The position numbers were made by a program, and so were the translations under genes. Shown in pieces: positions 8,201 to 56,584 of a stretch of DNA of 64,000 nt (position 1 is its first letter; every line of letters starts with the position of its first letter). Below the pieces are notes generated by a model that did no database searches, was not told the DNA's origin, and saw nothing but the letters and a program-made list of their open reading frames with translations. The stretch covers positions 10,133,453 to 10,197,452 of the forward strand of contig NC_087084.1 of NCBI RefSeq assembly GCF_026151205.1. The letters run 5' to 3'. This stretch comes from Bolinopsis microptera. Lineage: Eukaryota > Ctenophora > Tentaculata > Lobata > Bolinopsidae.

Positions 8201-11200
8201 ACAAGGAAGAAACAAAATTATTTTCATCAAGTGACAGAAAGCAACGGTGCCAGGATCCAATCATGCAGCCACCGGGTACTTCTAAAGAAGGAAATCTCTC
8301 TTCACCCCAAACGTACCATCGTGCCAATGATTTGAAGAGAAACCCTGGCCTTACAGAAGACAACAATCTATTCCCAGGTAACCATGGTGATAAACATGGA
8401 AAGTATCCCCCGGACCATGTGTGGAAATCTGCTGATGCATCTATCAGTGACACGCTTCTGGTTGGTAATAAAGTTGATGACCATCATATTCTGAAGTCTG
8501 CTCTTACAAAAGAAACCAAGTCTATTGACAACAAGCCTGAGGGAAAAGATTACGGAGACTTTTCTAAACCAGAAAACGAACAATCGGTCATCAGAAAACA
8601 TCATGAAACACAAGTTGGTCAATCAAAACATTCCAACTGTAAATCTGACGACATTATAGAAAAGACTTCCAGCACACCTCAGCTTAATGATATGAGAAGT
8701 GGAGATTCTTCAAAATTTTATCAAGGCAACAAAGCTGAGGAGCAGTTCCAAACTCCTGGTATAATTCCTAAAATGCAACCAGAATCCCCCACACTTTTCT
8801 CTAAAGCTAGTGACATCACGAATAACGTTTCCCATCCTGGTGACACAATTAAATCACCAACTGATGAATTATCGGATGGTAAATCTGCAAATACAGTGAA
8901 ATGGCAAGCTGTTCCTCGCAATGATACGCAGAGAAAAAAATCTCCCGAAATCAAGTTGAAAGATGATGCTGTGAAAAATGATATTTTGAAGCTAAGTGAA
9001 ACAGATGATTCTGGCGACACAATGAAGAAAAGAATTTCCTCTTCAAATCGAACTCATGATTTGGTTAAAAAAGCTTCAATTTCGGAAAAATCACAAAAAT
9101 CAGGTTCAATTCCTGGTAAAATTTATAGCGATGGGTCAACAATTAATTTAGCTAACAAAAAGCCGGAGGACAATGATAATTCTGGGTCTGGACCTTGTGA
9201 TTCTAAAACCAAGAAACCTCCGCAACCGAAACAAGTCGTAAAAGACAAAAAACCTGACAAAATGCTAACTAGCTCACAACCTTCAACGAAACCAAGCAGA
9301 CGTCTGTCTACTTCAAAAGTTAACCGCCTGTCCAAAAATGGAATAATCAAACAAACCCCTTCTTTGAGTACTAAGAATAATAGGAAGCCATCTACTCCTC
9401 ACGTCGGTGAGACACTAGAAAATACCAATTCCACCTTAACAGAGGTAATTCGTAAACAGTTCTGGCCAAGTAAAAAGGCTGATACACCGGATGATCGTTT
9501 AATCTCTCCAAAAACGTCGGATGAAGCTTACGAAAGTGCAAGTATTCCCGAGTTGGGAAACGATCAGTCTTCTAAAAGAAAGCCAGGTGATGATAGGAAT
9601 AAGTTGGTAAATCCAAAAAACGAAGAGAGAGACGAAGGTTCCGACTTTAACTCTGAGCACAGTGATTCTCTTGCCAGGCCAGATACTAGTGTGGCAGCCA
9701 ATAGCTTGGTTACTAGGATCACTGAACCTTCGTTTACCAAATCAGATGATAAAATAGTCAGTAAACATCCTTCCAATCCTCGGCAGTCATCCAAACCAAA
9801 ATCTAACAAATTTCTAGTTGACCAACCTTGCACTGAATCAGATCAAAATGATGCTGAACTTGACAACACAACTGAAGAACAGTCTCTCAGTGATAAACCT
9901 TATCGTTCAAAAGGCATGACTCTTTCCAAAGAATGCTCAAATGCAGCAAATAAAAACAAAGATTCAGATTCTGTCGAAACTGAAGAACCAGAAAGAGAGT
10001 TGATTCCTCCAGATGAAAACATGATATCTTCTGATAACATATCTCCTGCTAATATTAACATGATATCTTCTGATAACATACCTCCTGCTAATCCTAACAT
10101 GATATCTTCTGATAACATACCTCCTGCTAATCCTAACATGATATCTTCTGATAACATACCTCCTGCTAATCCTAACATGATATCTTCTGATAACATACCT
10201 CCTGCTAATCCTAACGTGATATCTTCTGATAGCATACCTCCTGCTAATCCTAACATGATATCTTCTGATAACATACCTCCTGCTAATCCTAACATGATAC
10301 CTTCGGATAACATACCTCCTGCTAATCCTAACATGATATCTTCTGATAGCATACCTCCTGCTAATCCTAACATGATATCTTCTGATAACATACCTCCTGC
10401 TAATCCTAACATGATATCTTCTGATAACATACCTCCTGCTAATCCTAACATGATATCTTCTGATAACATACCTCCTGCTAATCCTAACATGATATCTTCT
10501 GATAACATACCTCCTGATAATCCTAACATGATATCTTCTGATAGCATACCTCCTGCTAATCCTAACATGATATCTTCTGATAACATACCTCCTGCTAATC
10601 CTAACATGATATCTTCTGATAGCATACCTCCTGCTAATGCTAACATGATATCTTCTGATAACATACCTCCTGCTAATCCTAACATGATACCTTCGAATAA
10701 CATACCTCCTGCTAATCCTAACATGATATCTTCTGATAACATACCTCCTGATAATCCTAACATGATATCTTCTGATAACATACCTCCTGCTAATCCTAAC
10801 ATGATATCTTCTGATAACATACCTCCTGCTAATGCTAACATGATACCTTCGGATAACATACCTCCTGCTAATCCTAACATGATATCTTCTGATAACATAC
10901 CTCCTGCTAATCCTAACATGATATCTTCTGATAACATACCTCCTGCTAATCCTAACATGATACCTTCTGATAACATACCTCCTGCTAATCCTAACATGAT
11001 ATCTTCTGATAACATACCTCCTGCTAATCCTAACATGATATCTTCTGATAACATACCTCCTGCTAATCCTAACATGATATCTTCTGATAACATACCTCCT
11101 GCTAATGCTAACATGATATCTTCTGATAACATACCTCCTGCTAATCCTAACATGATATCTTCTGATAACATACCTCCTGCTAATGCTAACATGATATCTT

Positions 11201-14200
11201 CTGATAACATACCTCCTGCTAATGCTAACATGATATCTTCTGATAACATACCTCCTGCTAATCCTAACATGATACCTTCGGATAACATACCTCCTGCTAA
11301 TCCTAACATGATATCTTCTGATAACATACCTCCTGCTAATCCTAACATGATATCTTCTGATAACATACCTCCTGCTAATGCTAACATGATATCTTCTGAT
11401 AACATACCTCCTGCTAATCCTAACATGATACCTTCGGATAACATACCTCCTGCTAATCCTAACATGATATCTTCTGATAACATACCTCCTGCTAATCCTA
11501 ACATGATACCTTCTGATAACATACCTCCTGCTAATCCTAACATGATATCTTCTGATAACATACCTCCTGCTAATCCTAACATGATATCTTCTGATAACAT
11601 ACCTCCTGCTAATCCTAACATGATATCTTCTGATAACATACCTCCTGCTAATCCTAACATGATACCTTCTGATAACATACCTCCTGCTAATCCTAACATG
11701 ATATCTTCTGATAACATACCTCCTGCTAATCCTAACATGATATCTTCTGATAACATACCTCCTGCTAATCCTAACATGATATCTTCTGATAACATACCTC
11801 CTGCTAATGCTAACCTGATATCTTCTGATAACATACCTCCTGCTAATCCTAACGTGATATCTTCTGATAACATACCTCCTGCTAATCCTAACGTGATATC
11901 TTCTGATAATATACCTCCTGCTAATCCTAACATGATATCTTCTGATAGCATACTTCCTGCTAATCCTAACATGATATCTTCTGATAGCATACCTCCTGCT
12001 AATGCTAACATGATATCTTCTGATAACATACCTCCTGCTAATCCTAACATGATATCTTCTGATAACATACCTCCTGCTAATGCTAACATGATATCTTCTG
12101 ATAACATACCTCCTGCTAATGCTAACATGATATCTTCTGATAACATACCTCCTGCTAATCCTAACATGATACCTTCGGATAACATACCTCCTGCTAATCC
12201 TAACATGATATCTTCTGATAACATACCTCCTGCTAATCCTAACATGATATCTTCTGATGAATTAAGGACGATGAAGCAATTCCCTAAAGATACAACTAAC
12301 AAAGTTTCAGCAAAAGTGGTGATCCCTCCCCACGGTGATAACAAAATATTATTAGAACATGCTCCAAGTAAGCCTAAAGAAACTGGCGAGAAGTCAGGTC
12401 TTGTTGAAACTGGAGAGCCAGACACAGAGCTCATCCTTCCTGTTGATAAGCAGATCATAATCATATCATCCGAACAAGATAAACTTACTTCTAAACCTAT
12501 GCTGACACTGGATGTTTCTGTAATTCCAGCTGCCAGTGAAACACAGCCCCTCAACAATAAACTTGATGGTATAAAACTCAATAAGCCTTTAAATAAACAT
12601 TTAAAAGATTCATCAACAAGGAAACTTCCAGCTAACAAATCTGGCGACACATTGAAAGAACAACCTTTGAATCGTAAACCTGTCAAACATAGCAACAACA
12701 AAGATTCATATCCTATTACATTTAAGGAGCCAAATGGAAAACAGATCCCTCTCGTCGATGGTAAAAGGAAGTTGTCAGAACCAGATCAACTTATTACTTC
12801 TGAGCCAGAAGCAACATTGGATTTGGCATCAGTTCCGATCGATTCTAAGATAAAGAATGATCGGAGTCCTGAAAGTGGTAGAGCAATGGAGGGGAACCCA
12901 AATATTCTGAATAAAGGAAAGAGTTCCCCGTCTAAGAAAGTGAGTTTTCAAACCCCATTGGATGAAACAAAAATAGTTGAACCATATGTGATTTCCGAGG
13001 ACAGTTGGGACGAACAAAGGGAATCAGGCCATACTAAAAATAGACCAAGTCCTACCCAGCCACCGAGAGAAAGTTTTCCCAAGCAGAGAAGTCCAAATCA
13101 GCGGCGAAGTGGCCCCATGGGTCACTCCTCTCCAAGCTTGAAACTTCCCTACAAAATAAAATCGATATGTGATGATCTCACGAGCAACACTAATTACAAA
13201 CGGAAAAGACCGAGATTCTCAAGTGGTCAATCAAAGGGTAAATTGTTGTCCATCTCTGCTGCTGAACCCTCTCCTCCGGAGGAGATGCTTCAGTCCGACG
13301 AAACTCCCCCTATCCAAAATGTAATCAAAGAAAACGCTACATCTCTCACAGATACACCACTTCCATCAAAACACAACAATGATGATCCATGCTTGAAACC
13401 AATCGAGTCTAATGAAGACCGAATATATCTTCCCGAGGGGTCAGCTTCACCCTCAGCGGGGGGCGAACCAGCCACAATGAGTCTCGAAGACCCTGAAACT
13501 GGCGATTTTGATTTGCACGAGTCAATTTTAGAGCTACAGATCATTCCTGATACCAAGGTTGAAGACAAAGCCTCTGACCACTGTGCAAATGACAGCTGCC
13601 CAACAGAGGAACCTAACTCTAAACCAGACAACAAAGATTGTGCAAGCACGGAAAGTGACACATCAAGTTCCGATTATGATATTCCATTCACTATTCCAGA
13701 AACAAGGTTTGCGAAAACCTTTGGTGAGCTACCTGTAAATCTACTCGAGGATGAGTCAATTCAACGGAAAATGAACCGCATGACAATATCTAGTACCCAG
13801 TTTATAAAATCTATTGAAGAGCTGAACGAGGAGATCCAGACAACTATAAGACGCGGATCTGCTAGCCCGCGGATATTCAGGGAAGATCCCTACTACTCAA
13901 TAAGTCCACTTCCTGATAGATCAAAAAGTTATTCTCCGCCTACTGATCGTGGGTTTGTTACAGTCAACTATTGCTTTTCGCCAGATAGACTCAATTCTAT
14001 TATGTCAACCAGTTTGGAAGAGTTTTCTTTGATGGAGCAACTCAGTTTTCTTCACAACAAGAACAAGGTTTCTGAAAAAGGCTGCAAGGATACCATGAGA
14101 TCTGGTGTCGAAATACAAAATTGCAGAACTGAAGTTTCAGAATGTGTCAGGAGCAGTGAGAGTAATGATCAACGCATTTACTCCAAAAGTCCGCACGTTA

Positions 14201-37780: not shown

Positions 37781-38047
<267 letters not shown>

Positions 38048-38455: not shown

Positions 38456-39000
<545 letters not shown>

Positions 39001-39090: not shown

Positions 39091-39417
39091 GGATATTTTA
39101 ATGTTTTTCTTAAATATGACAATTTTGTGTTTTCCCCCCTCACATCCCCATCTCAGGTCGTGACCAGTACTATACTGGTTCTTTACACTCGCCTTCCCAC
39201 CAATTTCATACCTAGTGTTAGCCTCTCCTTCTCTTCTGCCCCATCTAGGAAAAGTTATATTTTTTCAGAGAGAACATGTATATTATTTATCACCAAGCAA
39301 AGAGAACTCGTCAGGGACATGAAAAAACTGGTAACTGAGCAGCCTGATAAGCTACACTTTATCAGAAACGGTGCTATAAAGAGTACTGATAAGACTAATA
39401 AGACTGCAGAATGAGCT

Positions 39418-39733
39418 TGTGTGTTTTTAATAATTGATTATTATTAGTGTATTCAAGTTTTTGTTGTGTGGAGGATGTTTTAACTCACTCTTGTGTGCCC
39501 AGTCTTGCACTGTCAGTATTTCTCGACACTTTGAGCACACAAAACTGTCAGTTTTCGCGACAATTGTCAGATTTCGTTTTCAGTTCTGTCAATTTCAAGC
39601 GCTACTAGCTCTACTACTAGTAGTCTACTTCAGCTCACATTAAAGGGAGTTTTCGTCGTGCGTGTAGCGCCCTTCAAGTTTAACTTGGACGGATAGGATT
39701 TATAAAACTTCTGATTATAATATTTATACTATA
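39418..39733 (+). other. Probable 5' leader of the CR1-type LINE
   Basis: This is non-coding sequence between the end of the microsatellite-linked frame (TGA at about 39,414) and the first ATG of ORF1. It includes a GTCAG/CTGTC-rich stretch at 39,505-39,595. The exact 5' end of the element is not visible because no second full-length copy is present. Confidence 0.35.
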
Positions 39734-41860
39734 TTGTATTTTATATCTATGTATTTTAGTAAATGGTCATTAGAACCACCGGCACCGTCCGGGCCCAAAC
39801 AAACAAACAGTTCATTACTCAATCAATCAATGTATATTCGAATACATAATATCAAACTATACCTGATGATCAGATATAGCCATGTTACCATAGCACTTCG
39901 TACAATTATCAAAACGCTACTCTCTAAGTGTCCCTGCTTTGTAGAGTCAAAGAACCCCGCAATCTTATGTGTTAATTGTAAGCAGACCTTCCATGCCACC
40001 TGTGTTAACCTGGCTGGCCTCACAATAGCTTCTCTGAGGAAGCTCAGCACTTCCTGGAAGTGCCCGGACTGCTTTATCTTTCCTTACACAAGAAGATTGA
40101 AGGAGGAGGATAAATCCAAAGCCTTAACAGAATTCTTTAGCAACATTGCTAAGATATCCAAATGTAATGAGGACCTCAAAGATAGTACAACAACCATAGA
40201 GTTCTTCAACGAGCATATCAAACACCTCATACTCAAGGAGGACAGTTACAAAGATCACTCCAAAAAAACAGAACGATTAGTAACTGGAATTGAAGACATC
40301 ACTGAAGACATAGCTGTTATCAAGGATGTACTTACGAAAGTAAAGGAGAGTGGCTCAGCTCTTGAGACAACCAGTTATTCTCTCAAACAGGAGATTGATG
40401 ACCTGAAGGACTCTCTCAAAAGTATTCCTATTACAGAGCAACCCCCGACCAACAGCAGTACTTTCGATCATGTTGATAACCTGATGACCCAGATCAAAGT
40501 GCAATTGGAAAAGATCAATGATCATGTTTGTCCCTCAACGTCCACACAGAAATTTGATGAAGGTGAACTACCCAACAACGACTCTATCGTTATGACCCCT
40601 AACACTACTTCCCCTCACTTTGCTCCATCTCAAATTTCTATAGACCCTGCATGTGACCCTTATATAACTTATCAGGAAGATATAGTGCCTGTTGAGCTTC
40701 ACAGCAAACTTATAAAGCTGCTGGAGGACAGTGGTGTAGATTTTTCTTCGGTTGGTGGCAGCAGGGATGTCATCTACTTTGGTGAACATGGATACTGGTA
40801 TACAGGAGCATATCATCAGGCAAAGGAAACTCCAGTAGAGATACAAGATCTTTTGGACTGTGTGCGCCCCTCTCTCCCCAATAGGAAGAGCTGGCTGAAC
40901 TCTTGCCTTGTAACAAGATATACAGGCAACAGTAGCCATATCCCTCAGCACTGTGACAATGAGGTACTTATTGACCCTGAATCAATAATAGTCACTGTGT
41001 CTCTTGGTGAAGAACGCACAATAAAGTTCACTCATAAGTCGACTGAAAAGTCCTTAAAGCTCAAAGATGGAAGTGTGTACGTGATGTCCAGGTTGTCCCA
41101 GGAAATCTGGAATCATGGTATTGAACCTCTCACTAATGAAGAAGATGAAGAAGAATCTGATGAGAAAAATTCTGTGAGGTACAGCTTTACCTTTAGGCAT
41201 ATTGCGCCTTACTACAAAAATAGCACAGTTTTAATTGGGGACTCAAACACTAAATACATTAAATTTGGTAAAGATGTTGGAACTCTCGGAAAATGGGTTC
41301 CTGGTAAGCGAATGTGGGCTGCTAAAATTGACGATATTCCTGCTCCGAAAGACATAGGCCCTTATCGGAACATTGTTATACACACGGGAATCAATGATAT
41401 TCGGGATGATTCCAACAGACCATCTACTAGAACACTTATTGCTAAGCTTAAGAAGAAATGTAGTGAAATTCAGCAATTTTACCCTAATAGTAAAGTTCAT
41501 ATTAGTCTACTCTTGCCCACTAAATCACAGTTTGTTAACTCACGTATAGGGGAGTTAAACAGTTTAATTGTCGACATGGTTTATAATAGGAAAAACATGT
41601 TTATTATAGATAACTCTGTACTAGGTTCTGTTAACGGATGCATGCCTTCTAAGTATGGTCGATTCTCACGTGATGGCACACCATTGGTCAATGATGTTGT
41701 ACATCTCGGAAGAGAAGGCCTGAAAATATTTTGCATGAGTATAAAACGATGTATTGTACAACGTGGTGGAAGTCAGTCCACGGAAAGATTTAAAGGTGGA
41801 AATGGTGACTATAGGAGTGCCCTAAGTAGGGGTAGTAGGGGTGATATCTTACCGATATGA
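39734..41860 (+). CDS. CR1-group LINE ORF1: PHD finger, AlkB-type 2OG-Fe(II) dioxygenase, SGNH esterase
   Basis: 708 codons, no stop. Residues ~65-113 form a PHD-type zinc finger (ILCVNCKQTFHATC ... WKCPDC). ~120-275 are helical, likely coiled coil. ~315-490 match AlkB-type dioxygenases: HxD at H406-C-D408 (PQHCDNE), distal His H461 (QEIWNHG), and the 2-oxoglutarate motif R482-x5-R488 (RYSFTFR). ~497-675 form an SGNH hydrolase: GDS at 502-504 (Ser504), GxND with Asn554 (HTGIND), Asp654/His657 (NDVVHLG). PHD and esterase are known in CR1 ORF1 proteins; the dioxygenase is the unusual part. AlkB enzymes remove methyl groups from nucleic acids, so it may act on element RNA or DNA (inference). The first ~60 residues look unlike a domain, and the true start may be an internal ATG. 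The stop overlaps the ORF2 start. Confidence 0.9.
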   Translation: MYFISMYFSKWSLEPPAPSGPKQTNSSLLNQSMYIRIHNIKLYLMIRYSHVTIALRTIIKTLLSKCPCFVESKNPAILCVNCKQTFHATCVNLAGLTIASLRKLSTSWKCPDCFIFPYTRRLKEEDKSKALTEFFSNIAKISKCNEDLKDSTTTIEFFNEHIKHLILKEDSYKDHSKKTERLVTGIEDITEDIAVIKDVLTKVKESGSALETTSYSLKQEIDDLKDSLKSIPITEQPPTNSSTFDHVDNLMTQIKVQLEKINDHVCPSTSTQKFDEGELPNNDSIVMTPNTTSPHFAPSQISIDPACDPYITYQEDIVPVELHSKLIKLLEDSGVDFSSVGGSRDVIYFGEHGYWYTGAYHQAKETPVEIQDLLDCVRPSLPNRKSWLNSCLVTRYTGNSSHIPQHCDNEVLIDPESIIVTVSLGEERTIKFTHKSTEKSLKLKDGSVYVMSRLSQEIWNHGIEPLTNEEDEEESDEKNSVRYSFTFRHIAPYYKNSTVLIGDSNTKYIKFGKDVGTLGKWVPGKRMWAAKIDDIPAPKDIGPYRNIVIHTGINDIRDDSNRPSTRTLIAKLKKKCSEIQQFYPNSKVHISLLLPTKSQFVNSRIGELNSLIVDMVYNRKNMFIIDNSVLGSVNGCMPSKYGRFSRDGTPLVNDVVHLGREGLKIFCMSIKRCIVQRGGSQSTERFKGGNGDYRSALSRGSRGDILPI

Positions 41861-44800
41861 CCTCAATAAACTTTAATATTACAAGAGAGAGATGTCCAGG
41901 TTGTGATAGCAATGTACTAAGCCATCATAAAGTCATAATATGTGAGTGTTGCGATACAATATATCATGCCAAATGTTCTGAACAGAGCTTTAAATTTGAC
42001 CATGTTAAACAAATGTGGCACTGCAGTCAATGTTTCGCCTTCAAATCCCAAAGGTACAATCCTTTCAACTCAATTATTTATGACAAATATGATCCCAACA
42101 CTGTAGAAAGAGACGAAGATATGGAGACTATTTCAAACATTCTAAAAGACTGTAGGTCTTATAACATGACAAATTTCAACCGGCTGTCAAAAAACATACT
42201 TAACCATAACAAGCCGTTTATATCTATTGTGTTTAACAACATTGATGGGAACGCATCTAACTTTGACAGCTTTATTACTGATATGAGTCAATATGATGAG
42301 AAATTTGCAGTTATTGCGCTAGCTGAAACAAACATTGATGAGGAAAATAAAGATTTATACAAAATTGATGGTTACAGCAGTGAGTATAACTCCAAAACTG
42401 ATGGGAAAAAGAAAGGTAGTGGCCTTGGTGTATATATTGACAATAAGTACCAATACAGCCGAATCGAAAAGTTATGTAAATGCTCTGACAATCTTGAAAC
42501 ACTTTTTGTTGAGATCACTAACACAGAGGTTCCACAGATTGCTGGTGTTGTCTACAGGCCCCCTAGTGGTGATATTCTAGATGCACTTGCTGAGCTTGAC
42601 GTGTTGATGAAATTCCTACCGTCTAATAATGTAGCCTTGACAGGTGACTTCAATGTTGATCTTTTGGCCCAGGGACGAAACATAGCTGAATTTGAACAAA
42701 CTATCTACAGTAACAATTTAATCCCTTTGATATCGATTGCCACCCATGCCAAGCCGGGTTGCAACGAAAGCTTAATTGATAATATTTTAGTGAACTCTAC
42801 TGAGCGTGTCTTAGGATCTGGAATTCTTGAATCCAAGATTTCCCATCATAACCCAATCTTCTGTTTCATATCGTGTAATACTAAAGAGAGTCCAAATGAT
42901 ACCAAACTTAAACCTAAGTATGATTACTGTGAGTCTAATATAGAAAGCTTCCTTAATGATATTGGAAGGGATATCTACCGATCGAACTTTTCGTATGATG
43001 AGGAAGGTTTTGAAAAATTTGTCGAAACTGTCCATGAAAAAATCGAACTGAATTTCAAATTGGACTCTACCGCTGGTTTTCAATCAAAACGCAATAGATT
43101 GATGAATCCATGGATCACTTCTGCGTTAATTAAATCTGTGTTTACTAAAGGCTTTCACTACAAGCGATGGAAGGCTTCGTGTACCAAAATCAACCCATTA
43201 GGTGAGGAAACTTTATATCTTAAGTATAAGGAGTATCGTTCTATCCTAAACAAAGCTATAAAATCTGCGAAAAAAGCCCACTATGGAAAAAAATTTGAAC
43301 TTGCTAAAGGAAATATAAAAAAAACCTGGGAATTGATTAACGAACTCAGGGGTAAATCTAAAAAAGATATAAAAGCATCATTCTTAATTGATGGTCGAAT
43401 TGTAACTGAACGCCGTGAGATTGCTAACGGATTTAACATCTACTTCTCGTCTATTGCTCGTAATCTTAATTCAAAAGTTCAATCTTCTGTACCATCTCGT
43501 ACGGTAACTGATGGCAATTTTATTAAGACGAAGTTTAAACAATACCTCAAGGGCAGAGAAAGAATAGTGAACTCTTTTTTTCTCAGCCCCTGTGACGAGG
43601 AAGAGACAAGTAAAATCATTGGTAGCCTTGAAAATGGGAAGGCAAGTGATATCTCTGTTAAAGTCTTAAAAAAGAGTGTAAATTATCTGTCTGGTCATAT
43701 CTCTAGATTCTTTAATTGGTTCTTGGACAATGGGGTCTTTCCAAACAAGCTTAAAACGGGCTCTATTACACCAATTTATAAAAAAGGAGACTCACGATGC
43801 CTTGATAACTATCGACCTGTTTCTACATTACCGATATTTGGAAAAATACTTGAAAAAATAATCTATAATAGGTTATATAATTACCTCAGTGCTATGAACG
43901 TGATTTATGATCGACAATTTGGTTTTAGAAAACAACACTCAACATCTCATGCCGTAAACTATTCTGTCAATAAAATACTTAATGAGATTGAACAGAAAAA
44001 TCATGTAATTGGAATATTTATTGATCTAAGTAAAGCATTTGACACAATTGAGCACGATAAACTCCTGCATAAACTTGAACACTATGGAGTAAGAGGTATT
44101 GCACTGAAAACTCTTGCTAGCTATCTAACAAACCGTAGCCAAGTAACTTCTTTTCAAACTGAAAAGTCGGACAAGTGTTCAGTTGAGTATGGTGTACCCC
44201 AGGGGTCAGTGTTAGGACCTCTACTATTTCTGATTTATATAAATGATATTGTGAGCTCCTCAAGCTTGGCTGAATTCGTCCTGTTTGCTGATGATACAAA
44301 TATTTTTGTGATAGGTAGTTCAGCACAGGAAGCTTTTGAAAAAGCTAATCATGTAATGAAACAAGTCAGTAACTATATGGAGTCTAACAAGTTACATATA
44401 AATGCAGGGAAAAGTTGTTATATGCATTTTCAGCCAGGTTTGTCAAGAGCAACACAGACCTGTGCCAGAACACGGCCCTTTAACAGGAATCTAACGATTT
44501 TAATAGATGGCAAAAAGCTAGAAAAAGTTCAATGTACAAAGTTTCTTGGGGTGATAATAGACGAACAGCTAAGCTGGGAACCACATCTTAATCATTTATC
44601 TTTAAAGCTGAACTCCAGTATTGTATCGATTAAGAGAATTTGCAAATTCATTCCCAAATCTGAATATTTGAAACTATACAATGCTCTTTTTATGTCACAT
44701 CTTAGCTATTGTATAAGTTGCTGGGGTGGGATCCCTAAACATAAGCTGAATAAAATCTTTGCAATTCAAAAACGATGTATAAGACTGCTATTTGGTAACA

Positions 44801-45288
44801 TTCCCAATTTTGATCATAAAGAATACTATTTAACCTGTGCACGTTCAAGAACTTATAACGAACATATGGCTAGCAAGAACTACTGTCTTGAACACACTAA
44901 ACCGCTATTCACCGAGCAGAAAATTATGAACCTGGAGAATCTGCACATGTACCATACATTTATGGAATTATTCAAAATTCTTAAATTTGATGTCCCCCAG
45001 TCGATTAAAGATCTTTTCAAGTTCTGTCCTAGAAATGAAAAACTTCGTCTGATTGTCCCATTACTGAGGTTAGATATCTCCCAACAAAACTTTTTGTACA
45101 CCTCTACGAAAATTTGGAATGACCTCAGCCCCTATGTATTCGAAATATGTGATGCTAATGTAGATGGGTTGATAATCCCGGGTTCTTCCAAGAATTCAGA
45201 CTTATCAGCTTCGTCAGGTGTTATTAAATCTAACCTTAAAAAGCACTTGCTATCCCTCCAAAATCGAGATGACCCTAATACATGGTAA
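41857..45288 (+). CDS. CR1-group LINE ORF2: PHD-like finger, APE endonuclease, reverse transcriptase
   Basis: 1,143 codons without a stop; the ATG at 41857 overlaps the ORF1 TGA (ATGA). Residues 13-60 form a PHD-like zinc finger (CPGC ... CECC ... YHAKC ... WHCSQC). ~118-340 are an apurinic-like endonuclease (AETNI with Glu156, GVVYRPPSG, TGDFNVD). The usual final SDH reads S-H-H (SHHNPIF, ~329), so the Asp is replaced. ~620-870 are the reverse transcriptase: NYRPVSTLP, FIDLSKAFDTIEH, GVPQGSVLGPLLF, and the catalytic FADD (~810). The C-terminus has the SYCISCWGG ... IQKRCIRLL pattern of the CR1/L2-like group; no RNase H. It nicks target DNA and primes reverse transcription. The intact reading frame suggests recent activity. 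Confidence 0.95.
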   Translation: MTSINFNITRERCPGCDSNVLSHHKVIICECCDTIYHAKCSEQSFKFDHVKQMWHCSQCFAFKSQRYNPFNSIIYDKYDPNTVERDEDMETISNILKDCRSYNMTNFNRLSKNILNHNKPFISIVFNNIDGNASNFDSFITDMSQYDEKFAVIALAETNIDEENKDLYKIDGYSSEYNSKTDGKKKGSGLGVYIDNKYQYSRIEKLCKCSDNLETLFVEITNTEVPQIAGVVYRPPSGDILDALAELDVLMKFLPSNNVALTGDFNVDLLAQGRNIAEFEQTIYSNNLIPLISIATHAKPGCNESLIDNILVNSTERVLGSGILESKISHHNPIFCFISCNTKESPNDTKLKPKYDYCESNIESFLNDIGRDIYRSNFSYDEEGFEKFVETVHEKIELNFKLDSTAGFQSKRNRLMNPWITSALIKSVFTKGFHYKRWKASCTKINPLGEETLYLKYKEYRSILNKAIKSAKKAHYGKKFELAKGNIKKTWELINELRGKSKKDIKASFLIDGRIVTERREIANGFNIYFSSIARNLNSKVQSSVPSRTVTDGNFIKTKFKQYLKGRERIVNSFFLSPCDEEETSKIIGSLENGKASDISVKVLKKSVNYLSGHISRFFNWFLDNGVFPNKLKTGSITPIYKKGDSRCLDNYRPVSTLPIFGKILEKIIYNRLYNYLSAMNVIYDRQFGFRKQHSTSHAVNYSVNKILNEIEQKNHVIGIFIDLSKAFDTIEHDKLLHKLEHYGVRGIALKTLASYLTNRSQVTSFQTEKSDKCSVEYGVPQGSVLGPLLFLIYINDIVSSSSLAEFVLFADDTNIFVIGSSAQEAFEKANHVMKQVSNYMESNKLHINAGKSCYMHFQPGLSRATQTCARTRPFNRNLTILIDGKKLEKVQCTKFLGVIIDEQLSWEPHLNHLSLKLNSSIVSIKRICKFIPKSEYLKLYNALFMSHLSYCISCWGGIPKHKLNKIFAIQKRCIRLLFGNIPNFDHKEYYLTCARSRTYNEHMASKNYCLEHTKPLFTEQKIMNLENLHMYHTFMELFKILKFDVPQSIKDLFKFCPRNEKLRLIVPLLRLDISQQNFLYTSTKIWNDLSPYVFEICDANVDGLIIPGSSKNSDLSASSGVIKSNLKKHLLSLQNRDDPNTW

Positions 45289-45646
45289 CTAATCTATATT
45301 ATATCTCAAACTCTACATCCGGTACGGCTATGCACACATGATATCTCTCTCTGCCATGAAACATGGCTAACCTTTTAAACTGTGATTCAAAACCTAAAGC
45401 TAAACTAAAACTCAACTGGGCTCTCCTTTGTCACCAAACTAAACCAATAAGTAATTTAAGATTATTATATTTTTCTATATTTGTATACTGTAATTAGTAT
45501 ATTGACGTAGTGGATGGTTGAGGGGGTTTCAAGCACAGGTCACTCTCAAATCCTAAAGATAAGCAGTGGCCTTCGGCACTTGAAACCTCTTCAAACCTCC
45601 CCTGATTTATTTATTATTGATATTGTTTGATTGTGCCGTAAAAATA

Positions 45647-45680
45647 AATATTTGTTTTATTAAATATTTGTTTTATTAAA
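45647..45680 (+). repeat. 3'-terminal short direct repeat of the LINE
   Basis: AAATATTTGTTTTATT occurs twice in tandem directly before unique flanking sequence. It marks the likely reverse-transcription start end of the element. Confidence 0.6.
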
Positions 45681-45849
45681 AGCATCTTTGGCAATCTCTT
45701 TGAGTTTGTAGCACCCTTTCCTGTTTTTATAGTTTTACCTCTACCTGTAATTTGAATTTTGTTATAAAATATTATTAACCCACCACTATGAAGGGCAGGA
45801 ACCGAGAATGCCCCAATGTCATGACAATTTTACGACAAGATGTGTCAAT

Positions 45850-46070
45850 ATGAGCAGGGAATGACAGGGAATGATAGGGAATGACAGGGAATGACAGGGA
45901 ACGACAGGGAAAGACAGGGTATGATAGGGAACGACAAGGAATGACAGGGAATGACAGGGAACGACAAGGAACGACAGGGAATGACAAGGAATGACAAGGA
46001 ATGACAAGAAATGACAAAAAATAACAAGGAATAATGACAGGGAATAACAGGGAATGATATGGAATGACAA
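45850..46070. repeat. 10-bp minisatellite (GGGAATGACA)n
   Basis: About 20 copies of GGGAATGACA and one-base variants (GGGAACGACA, AGGAATGACA). The period of ten and lack of stops create artificial frames on the minus strand. Confidence 0.95.
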
Positions 46071-54162: not shown

Positions 54163-54318
54163 AATTAATTTTTATTATCATCACAGTGCAATATTTTGAC
54201 CAACATGAAACGATCGTTAATTGTAATTTTAAATTCTAAAAGGCAATCCCTAAGAGTACGGTTGATGGAAATCTAGCGTCCGCTAACCGGCGCAATTAAT
54301 TTTTATTATCATCACAGT
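54163..54318. repeat. Direct repeat just before the NERD gene
   Basis: CAATTAATTTTTATTATCAT plus CACAGTGC occurs at about 54,163-54,190 and again at about 54,292-54,319, the second copy ending right at the start codon region. It could be a target duplication of a ~100-bp insertion or a duplicated promoter piece. Confidence 0.7.
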
Positions 54319-56584
54319 GCGTATGGCACAGAATGAAACGCAGTTTGAGAAATACCTACGGAATGGAAAAGATATATTTGAGACCTACTGTTTTACTGAA
54401 GACGGAAATCCTATCATGTTACCAAGAGCTCCTCAGCAGCAGTATATAGACATCTACCCGAATGAAGATCAACCCGGGAGTAGTTTTAAAAACGACAGAA
54501 ACCATCAACTAAACTATGAAGCTGAGGTAATTGTCTACAGGGCTTTAGAGAAAGTTGGCAAACCTTTTATTGTTCTTCATAGTTTTGAATACACCCATTT
54601 TCAATACCATTTGGGTGATACAGGTCATGATAAACGAAAGTGCCAAAAGTGCAAAAAGATGGCAACGAATAGAGAGGGTGAGTGTGATTTTATTGTAATA
54701 GCATCAAACCACTTTGTGGTAATAGAAGTGAAGAATATGGGCCACATCGGTGAAGTTTCAGATTCTGAGAGTAACAAAGATCACCAAATGCAAGTGTTGG
54801 CTAAAACCTTCCAGAAATCACTCGAGCAGAGGAAGAAAATGGTTGACTTGATCAGACGATTTTGTAAACGGTTAACCGTCCTCCAGTTCACTGTTTATCC
54901 TAATTTTCAAAAGAGATTCAGCTGTGAATTCCAATTGAGCAGGAACCAGAAATCAACTATCATATTCAAGGATGACATCGATGATTTTAGTAATTGGTGG
55001 AATGACAATGTGACTGACTTTGTCTTAGATGAACCTCTGCGTTCAGAGTTTCGAAACAAACATGAAGATGTTCGGAACTTATTGTTAGCTGTATGGAGCA
55101 CAGAAAAGACCGAATGTGATAAGTCCAAGTGCAGTTTAAGTAAATGTATAATGACCATCGACGAACAATTGCGTTCAGGAAGATTTTCCTTCAGGAGTAA
55201 TAATCCCGAAGTTATTCCTACGCCAAAGATTGTCAAGGATTTTTTAGGAGTGGATAACTTGACAAAACAACAATACGATTTGATAAATTCAGATGAGAAG
55301 TTTTTGTGGATTAATGGTCCCGCTGGAACAGGCAAAACTGTTGTACTAATGGCTAAGATCCTAGAATTAGTACTATCAGATGTGAACAACAAAGTTGTAT
55401 TGTTCTGCGAAACATGTGTCCGTGAAGACGTTACATCTTCAGACCATATTCATAAAGTATTGATTAAAGCTGGAGTACAGCATGCGTCTACTATCTGTTA
55501 TCAAATTGCCGACGAACCATTTGAACTCTTGCATATGATTAAACGAAATTTCCGTTTCAATCAAGTTGAAGTAATCATGCTTAGGGGTATTAATGATGAC
55601 AAGATGGTTCAAAGAGCTAATTCTGAGTCGATAAGAAACCTTCTTCGTTTACTACAAGGCCACGGTATCAACGTGTTTTACGACGATATTCAAGCTGCAT
55701 TAACAGGGGATGGGTTGGAAATTATCGGGGATTTTGACTATGAAATAGTAAAAACATTATTCGAACTTTCAAGATCTGTTCATGTTTGGGTAGCATGTGA
55801 TACGATACAAACTCATACATTACAAAATATGCAATATATGGATGGACCGGTAACCTCCAGAGATAGCACAACTTTTACCAGTTTCCTCAAAAATGAGTTA
55901 TCCTCTTCACAACTAGTTAGTCTATCAAAGAACTTAAGAAACACTTCTGATTTATCGAGTTCTTTGTCAGTTATCCGGAACGAAATCACAGGGCTGAAAC
56001 ACCTAACATCACGTTTAAGGAACGATTTCATCGTACCACAGTCCCCCGGTCATTACATACATGGACCAAAAGTTATCATACATGTTCTGCAAAACCTTGA
56101 CAAGGAACTGGTATATGATATTTTCGCAAAAGAAATAGATAAATTATTTTGCGATAATATGATAAAAAAGAATGACGTGGGTTGTATCTGCAATATTCCA
56201 GCTCACCTAGCATCAAATACGATCTCTTTAACGAAAAATATAGTTGATGGGATTTTGAATTCAAAAGGTATGAAGCTTCGGCCGGTACTTTCAACGTATT
56301 CAAAAGAATGGCCTGCCGTGATAGCGCTTCAAATGTTGAAAGATGAGGAAGTTAAAATGATAATGACTCATCCGATTGCGCAAGCGATGTTCAATCTAAA
56401 CCGAGACCATGAAGAATTTGAGAGAGATATAGACGATCTTTACTTGGCAATGTCAAGAGCACGAGTCAAGTGCACTGTCATAATGTTTCCCTCGGACGGT
56501 TCTACATTAGATGATTGTACTAGGATGAAGAACGTGTTGGATAAGCTCGGACAAGAGGGCTCGGTAGAAATAAAGAAACATTAA
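54317..56584 (+). CDS. NERD nuclease-like domain fused to superfamily-1 helicase-type ATPase
   Basis: 755 codons, one exon. Residues ~65-160 form a NERD domain of the restriction-endonuclease fold, with Glu69, Asp124 (GECDF) and Glu137-x-Lys139 (VIEVKN) as the expected catalytic set; a Cys pair (CQKCKK) precedes Asp124. A Q-like motif (LTKQQYDLI) comes before Walker A at 334-341 (GPAGTGKT). Walker B is FYDDIQA (~454-460, D456/D457) and motif VI is LAMSRARVK (~709-717), as in UvrD/DUF2075-like enzymes. Expected action: ATP-driven nucleic-acid processing with possible cleavage. In bacteria, NERD-helicase fusions are common on mobile and defence loci; in animals such genes occur as scattered families. 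Lack of introns beside intron-rich neighbours suggests retrocopying or transfer (inference). Start: ATG at 54317 or 54323. Confidence 0.8.
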   Translation: MRMAQNETQFEKYLRNGKDIFETYCFTEDGNPIMLPRAPQQQYIDIYPNEDQPGSSFKNDRNHQLNYEAEVIVYRALEKVGKPFIVLHSFEYTHFQYHLGDTGHDKRKCQKCKKMATNREGECDFIVIASNHFVVIEVKNMGHIGEVSDSESNKDHQMQVLAKTFQKSLEQRKKMVDLIRRFCKRLTVLQFTVYPNFQKRFSCEFQLSRNQKSTIIFKDDIDDFSNWWNDNVTDFVLDEPLRSEFRNKHEDVRNLLLAVWSTEKTECDKSKCSLSKCIMTIDEQLRSGRFSFRSNNPEVIPTPKIVKDFLGVDNLTKQQYDLINSDEKFLWINGPAGTGKTVVLMAKILELVLSDVNNKVVLFCETCVREDVTSSDHIHKVLIKAGVQHASTICYQIADEPFELLHMIKRNFRFNQVEVIMLRGINDDKMVQRANSESIRNLLRLLQGHGINVFYDDIQAALTGDGLEIIGDFDYEIVKTLFELSRSVHVWVACDTIQTHTLQNMQYMDGPVTSRDSTTFTSFLKNELSSSQLVSLSKNLRNTSDLSSSLSVIRNEITGLKHLTSRLRNDFIVPQSPGHYIHGPKVIIHVLQNLDKELVYDIFAKEIDKLFCDNMIKKNDVGCICNIPAHLASNTISLTKNIVDGILNSKGMKLRPVLSTYSKEWPAVIALQMLKDEEVKMIMTHPIAQAMFNLNRDHEEFERDIDDLYLAMSRARVKCTVIMFPSDGSTLDDCTRMKNVLDKLGQEGSVEIKKH

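Follow-up and report, generated by a model that had tools for sequence, protein, structure and literature searches.

An AlkB-type dioxygenase domain in the ORF1 protein of a comb jelly LINE and in other transposons of the same genome

Few components of retrotransposition are as poorly understood as the proteins encoded by the first open reading frame (ORF1) of long interspersed nuclear elements (LINEs). In a stretch of 64,000 nucleotides from the comb jelly Bolinopsis microptera (contig NC_087084.1, positions 10,133,453 to 10,197,452; hereafter the window), a LINE carries an ORF1 in which an AlkB-type Fe(II)/2-oxoglutarate (2OG) dioxygenase domain is placed between a coiled coil and an SGNH esterase. 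Judging by codon comparisons, the AlkB domain is retained under purifying selection in many copies, and AlkB is widespread among the transposons of the window's genome, Helitrons included. The ORF1 protein (ORF1p) is probably a multidomain ribonucleoprotein (RNP) protein with an ALKBH2/3-type dioxygenase and an SGNH esterase, in which the dioxygenase would repair the single-stranded nucleic acid of the element.

Layout and catalytic residues of the ORF1 protein

The domains of ORF1 follow one another as a PHD-like finger, which remains below the Pfam cut-off, a coiled coil, the AlkB domain and the SGNH esterase, at the following positions of the window.

39734..41860, (+) strand: ORF1 frame, 708 amino acids (aa); element sequence from ~39905-39914, the preceding part being flanking DNA
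39932..40081, (+) strand: PHD-like zinc finger, residues ~67-116 (PF00628, E=2.2e-4; score 21.6 bits, cut-off 24)
40094..40528, (+) strand: coiled coil, residues ~121-265, with long helices in the AlphaFold model
40649..41209, (+) strand: AlkB-type Fe(II)/2-oxoglutarate dioxygenase domain, residues ~306-492, with H406, D408, E410, H461, R482 and R488
41219..41758, (+) strand: SGNH esterase domain, residues ~496-675, with S504, N554, D654 and H657, plus H550 and S591

The AlkB domain is recognized far beyond chance by PF13532 (E=8e-19 with the whole ORF1), by the PHROG family ‘alkylated DNA repair’ (E=2e-12) and by the PDB profile of ALKBH2 (E=1.7e-18), and its predicted structure is the AlkB fold, a double-stranded beta-helix; the identity proposed in an earlier note, made by a model from the sequence alone, is thereby borne out. 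The motifs on which that note relied, PQH406CD408NE, QEIWNH461G and R482YSFTFR488, are encoded in ORF1 as it stated, and its coordinates for the domain, 40660..41205, are one base out of frame and are better given as 40649-41209. By sequence as well as by fold, the nearest solved relatives are ALKBH2 and ALKBH3, and the fold and the metal and 2OG residues are common to the human enzymes and the window AlkB. Some AlkB homologues act on substrates other than nucleic acids. That the domain likewise acts on proteins or other non-nucleic substrates, proteins being named among the ALKBH substrates (PMC12494543), is very unlikely in view of these closest relatives and of its setting in an RNP protein.

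Across 78 ORF1 proteins, the iron and 2OG residues are kept almost throughout, with H406 and D408 in 75/78, H461 and R482 in 77/78, and R488 in 78/78. F337, Phe in 66 of 72 rows, is a possible counterpart of the duplex finger F102 of ALKBH2; the ALKBH2 alignment starts at this position, which makes it only a lead. In the same 78 proteins, the SGNH residues are similarly constant (S504, N554 and G502 78/78 each, G524 77/78, D654 74/78, H657 72/78). The top PDB relative of the esterase is 4c1b, the ORF1 esterase of the LINE ZfL2-1 (E=1.7e-6), and the Pfam GDSL match is weak and below cut-off (E=0.08 for the whole ORF1, 0.005 for the piece alone). The transposon-specific His and Ser of ZfL2-1 (H191 and S228) have counterparts, aligned with 4c1b, in H550 (76/78) and S591 (73/78); exceptions within the window's own genome are a change of S591 to Cys in loci L036-L040 and of H550 to Leu in L038/L039. 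By these SGNH catalytic residues after a coiled coil, the window ORF1 is of the esterase type (type IV). The N-terminal parts are more variable, a PHD match at E up to 0.1 being found in 22 of 35 aligned ORF1s, in which the pairwise identity of the coiled coil averages 0.26. Profiles, predicted fold and residue counts agree on the order PHD-coil-AlkB-SGNH and on the intact catalytic set. A viral or bacterial source was rejected, as the ORF1 profile had no relative in the scans of viral contigs and prokaryote genomes; a phage collection contained no more than three AlkB matches, all weak (26-35% identity).

Relatives, genomic copies and selection

Searches with the AlkB region and with the esterase region, both covering proteins of 0.55-1.75 times 708 aa, returned 34 proteins with PF13532 in 34/34 and 65 proteins with PF13532 in 62/65, respectively. 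Among the three esterase relatives without PF13532, P0039 has lost nearly the whole domain, and P0075 and P0077 retain its C-terminal part. For 72 of the 78 proteins, six being left out, AlkB distances correlate with esterase distances (r=0.87; 0/999 permutations as high), and the two domains have therefore mostly been passed on as a pair. The sole organism named among the ORF1 relatives is the comb jelly Mnemiopsis leidyi. A search for cellular relatives with the 186-aa domain gave four proteins, and its result was not used.

In the window's genome (264.65 Mb, 232 contigs), the ORF1 search found at least 70 matches (63 of 1135 candidates scored), many of which are open. Some of the genome rows had been chosen by motif (GDSN; H-x-D-[ND]-E; H-x-D..H..R-x5-R), and from the 40 loci of this motif-selected comparison L022, L025 and L027, which have no long motif-bearing frame, and L001, the window itself, were left out. 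As the invariance of such rows is partly built in, the residue reading was repeated with motif-free tblastn. In the close copies L002-L030, H406 and D408 are kept in 29/29, and H461, R482 and R488 in the 28/28 that reach them. In the wider set L002-L057, in which 50 of the 56 loci aligned and six gave no alignment, H406 and D408 are each present in 50/50, H461 in 49/49, and R482 and R488 in 46/46 each where covered.

The ratio of nonsynonymous to synonymous substitution rates (dN/dS) was estimated from 27 sequences with incomplete domain coverage, namely the window and 26 close copies with an open motif-bearing frame. With intervals from a codon bootstrap, it is 0.228 (0.152-0.358) for AlkB and 0.205 (0.137-0.306) for SGNH, against 0.451 (0.338-0.601) for the coil and 0.577 (0.432-0.789) for the PHD; the intervals of AlkB and coil barely overlap. 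At H406, D408, E410 and H461, 27/27 sequences use the same codon, and two smaller families point in the same direction, with AlkB dN/dS of 0.16 and 0.19 from 10 and 3 pairs. Apart from the motif selection, the sampling itself weighs against these results: the close copies used, L002-L030, are those with the highest scores, frames with stops were excluded from the dN/dS set, the copy pairs are non-independent, and the esterase-region search was blind to esterase ORF1s that are shorter and have no AlkB. However, neither pair non-independence nor the dropped broken frames can account for the contrast in dN/dS between domains that share a frame. Purifying selection over several copies, which the earlier note had put forward for testing, is therefore upheld by dN/dS and by the invariant catalytic codons. 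That note had also named what would speak against an AlkB, that is, no profile match, a predicted fold without the jelly-roll and catalytic residues that vary freely; each was looked for and none was found.

These data bear on two further explanations. The AlkB fold could be a non-catalytic module for nucleic-acid binding in an RRM-free ORF1p, and indeed no RRM is among the 15 Pfam families listed for the window ORF1, and the esterase ORF1ps of RepBase are reported to be without one (PMC3905857). Yet binding alone needs no full iron/2OG set, and this set is kept in nearly all relatives and in every genomic locus covering it, with the four codons named above unchanged, so that a purely structural role appears quite unlikely. 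The probability that the match arose by chance or is the decaying remnant of a captured gene, in favour of which the 5' truncation of the window copy may be cited, is practically negligible; for the family, this explanation is refuted by profile, fold, dN/dS and conserved relatives.

Other AlkB-bearing transposons and the proposed function

At least 151 matches to PF13532 were found in the window's genome (best 150 of 587 candidates scored), cellular genes included, and a search with one Helitron AlkB gave at least 150 scored matches, some groups of which are new relative to the PF13532 list. Representative loci of this transposon survey were read. Further LINE families have AlkB with a downstream reverse transcriptase (L046/L059, L047/L063, L050/L060, L052/L061, L053/L062 and L054/L065); L051/L064 is probably another AlkB LINE family, and L049/L066 has AlkB with an endonuclease within the sequence reached. 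An SGNH domain follows AlkB by profile in L031-L040, L047/L063, L049/L066, L050/L060, L051, L052, L054 and L057. By eye, an N-terminal PHD-like finger is seen in L051 and L054 and not in L046, L050, L052 and L053.

Helitrons, the rolling-circle elements with Rep and PIF1, carry the domain as well. Eleven matches of the Helitron AlkB type, at 79-100% identity, are the top ones in the search with the Helitron AlkB, and four loci (L041, L042, L048 and L055) were read. In L041 and its overlapping continuation L058, a single frame of 3388 aa encodes SGNH, AlkB, DUF6570, Helitron_like_N and PIF1 (in L058, PF14214 E=3.2e-19 and PF05970 E=3.5e-22), and in L042, a locus that does not extend to PIF1, one stretch of 2066 aa contains an SGNH domain that just misses the cut-off (PF13472, E=1e-6), followed by AlkB (E=5e-22), DUF6570 and Helitron_like_N (PF14214, E=2.9e-22). 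The L041/L058 frame has Helitron_like_N and PIF1 in one frame as known Helitrons do and, unlike these, adds SGNH and AlkB upstream. SGNH stands before AlkB in the Helitrons and after it in the LINEs.

An AlkB tree of 39 rows, whose cellular side comprises the human ALKBH2 and ALKBH3 and those of the window's genome, separates 28 LINE and four Helitron AlkBs from the cellular enzymes together with the LINE family L047/L049 (support 99/98). Most transposon AlkBs of this genome therefore form one branch, apart from the cellular enzymes ALKBH2 and ALKBH3. The L047/L049 family may represent a second capture, and the exact placing of the Helitrons is tentative, the branches concerned being long (2.04 for L047/L049, 2.21 for the Helitrons). 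We lean slightly towards the view that AlkB plus SGNH is a recurrent two-enzyme transposon module, which marks a large group of comb jelly LINEs and has passed between LINEs and Helitrons.

As to function, the two base lesions 1-methyladenine (m1A) and 3-methylcytosine (m3C) block reverse transcription, and enzymes of the ALKBH2/3 type repair them, for which reason repair of template RNA or new complementary DNA (cDNA) is the simplest role. The AlkB domain, presumably catalytically active, would travel with the element RNA, delivered in cis by ORF1p, and would oxidatively remove such Watson-Crick-face lesions from single strands of the element itself (its RNA template, its nascent cDNA or both), so that they do not stop copying. 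An epitranscriptomic or epigenetic eraser is possible although unlikely; it would take N6-methyladenosine (m6A) or another regulatory methyl mark off the element RNA, or N6-methyladenine (6mA) off DNA, and let the element escape host control. The PHD-like fingers of ORF1 and ORF2 fit such a role, this domain reading histones in other proteins. The intermediate of Helitrons is single-stranded DNA, with no known RNA template, and the presence of an AlkB of the same branch in them therefore favours single-strand repair or protection over m6A erasure. In addition, FTO and ALKBH5 are absent from the PDB profile list to E=10, and are seen only by fold, at lower Z. The orchid Gypsy AlkB discussed below is an RNA demethylase in vitro, and the report on it draws a link to the epitranscriptomic control of transposons (PMC9289625), which speaks for an eraser; against it, ALKBH5 suppresses retrotransposition of human L1, which METTL3 aids (PMC7873242).

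Several observations weigh against the repair reading and against the module. The suppression of L1 by ALKBH5 just mentioned also belongs here, since a LINE accordingly does not always benefit from demethylation. The window's genome has cellular genes of its own, an ALKBH2 homologue (E=4e-60) and two ALKBH3-like genes (2e-40 and 1e-27), and thus a resident repair enzyme. Asn is usual in the N-x-Y motif of the AlkB family, where it contacts 2OG, a common rather than defining feature; the window has Thr394 in its place, a departure at a co-substrate contact, and over the 78 ORF1s Tyr396 is kept in 75, and the Asn site is occupied by Thr in 55, by Asn and Ser in 10 each and by Pro in 1, with a gap in 2. 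The grouping of L047/L049 with the cellular enzymes may speak against a single origin. With the SGNH profile A3, the LINE loci L046, L053 and L056 give no match, and on the Helitron side it detects an SGNH in L055 (E=1.5e-5) and not in L041 or L042, where SGNH is seen by Pfam GDSL instead, at E 1e-6 and 7e-6, below cut-off; a kinship of the LINE and Helitron esterases is thus only weakly indicated.

The single components have precedents. The type IV ORF1ps of CR1/L2 LINEs, such as zebrafish ZfL2-1, likewise have a coiled coil and then an SGNH esterase, with catalytic residues matching those of the window, including H191 and S228 for H550 and S591; they differ in that AlkB stands directly before the esterase here, and the word ‘AlkB’ does not occur in the main texts of the reports on them (PMC3905857, PMC4120745). 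A Ty3/Gypsy element of the orchid Phalaenopsis is likewise a retrotransposon with an AlkB-family domain, there demethylase-active in vitro; it is a plant long terminal repeat (LTR) element with an AlkB-like 2-oxoglutarate-dependent dioxygenase as a separate extra ORF, a recent acquisition according to the title of the report (PMC9289625), whereas the AlkB described here is a domain of animal LINE ORF1p, flanked by the coiled coil and the esterase, and recurs in several families as well as in Helitrons. AlkB domains are also described in plant RNA viruses (Alphaflexiviridae, Betaflexiviridae and Closteroviridae), for which RNA repair has been proposed (PMC9289625); these too are mobile RNA-based agents, and the likeness is drawn from their description. 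Esterase ORF1s and AlkB in an LTR element are thus already known singly. What appears to be new is the PHD-coil-AlkB-esterase ORF1 as a large selected family, together with the AlkB-bearing Helitrons; a literature search, judged mostly by titles and the first part of abstracts and with Repbase, Dfam and most subscription papers outside its scope, found neither.

A conserved domain of demethylase type in ORF1p leads to a testable claim, namely that damage or methyl marks on single-stranded intermediates limit transposition. The occurrence of AlkB and a same-frame SGNH in the Helitrons of this genome suggests that two mechanistically unrelated kinds of transposon may face the same constraint, and, if the module has indeed passed between the two, direct-reversal repair of single-stranded intermediates would be a general transposon strategy.

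The window element and its surroundings

The element is a non-LTR retrotransposon on the (+) strand with ORF1 at 39734-41860 and ORF2 at 41857-45288, and its remaining features are as follows.

41857..45288, (+) strand: ORF2, 1143 aa, starting at an ATG that shares bases with the stop codon of ORF1 (ATGA), and with a PHD-like finger at the N-terminus, an endonuclease and a reverse transcriptase
43780..44559, (+) strand: reverse transcriptase domain of ORF2 (PF00078, E=2.1e-38)
45509..45603, (+) strand: imperfect inverted repeat in the 3' untranslated region, with 25-nt arms, 80% complementary
45680..45682, (+) strand: approximate 3' end of the element, a right edge common to other copies

The endonuclease of ORF2 is under the Pfam cut-off (PF03372, E=7e-4), with endonuclease motifs visible, and the N-terminus (41857-42060) is a PHD-like Cys4-His-Cys3 finger with a weak Pfam match (E=0.1); one L2 subgroup is described with a probable PHD at the start of ORF2 (PMC4120745). 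Its architecture points to an assignment of the window LINE to CR1/L2 (Jockey superfamily). At the 3' edge, all 39 other matches listed (best 40 of 403 candidates) end 403-429 bases into a query starting at 45260. No other close genomic copy matches the window ORF1 before residue 57-58, and L002, a full-length copy, shares nucleotide identity with the window only from 39914 onwards; the window copy is therefore 5'-truncated, with flanking DNA making up the first ~57 of its 708 residues. This truncation leaves AlkB, esterase and ORF2 untouched, and the window copy itself may be dead. A target-site duplication was not found between 39381-39930 and 45286-46000, where the one exact match of 9 bases is in an unsuitable place. 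Another copy that has lost its 5' part, L019 (C12:12224401-12225819), has its AlkB and SGNH within a longer open frame (1163 aa), being joined in frame to the sequence next to it.

A spliced-leader-like stretch of ~41-44 bases with TTTGAG as its end marks the 5' edge in full-length members of the window family (62-106 in L002). Exact or near matches to it lie in L004-L007, L009, L012, L013, L017, L028, L034, L038, L039, L046, L047 and L050, among them loci of several diverged AlkB LINE families; the leader-like stretch found at this junction in L008 is a different one and ends in TTGAG. The last 33 bases of the leader have 1,095 exact occurrences in the window's genome, against 0 for the reversed control. 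Spliced leaders are in use in comb jellies, and these stretches suggest that the LINE RNAs may be trans-spliced before being copied.

Upstream of the element lie pure dinucleotide arrays, with 270 copies of GA (38458-38998) and 132 of TG (37782-38046). Elsewhere in the window, a 39-base tandem repeat at 10018-12258 (57 copies, 96% matches) is located inside open frames of 2490 aa (+) and 933 aa (-), the former of which has no Pfam match at 1e-3. At 54317-56584, a frame of 755 aa has matches to a NERD nuclease-like domain and to a STAND-type NTPase.
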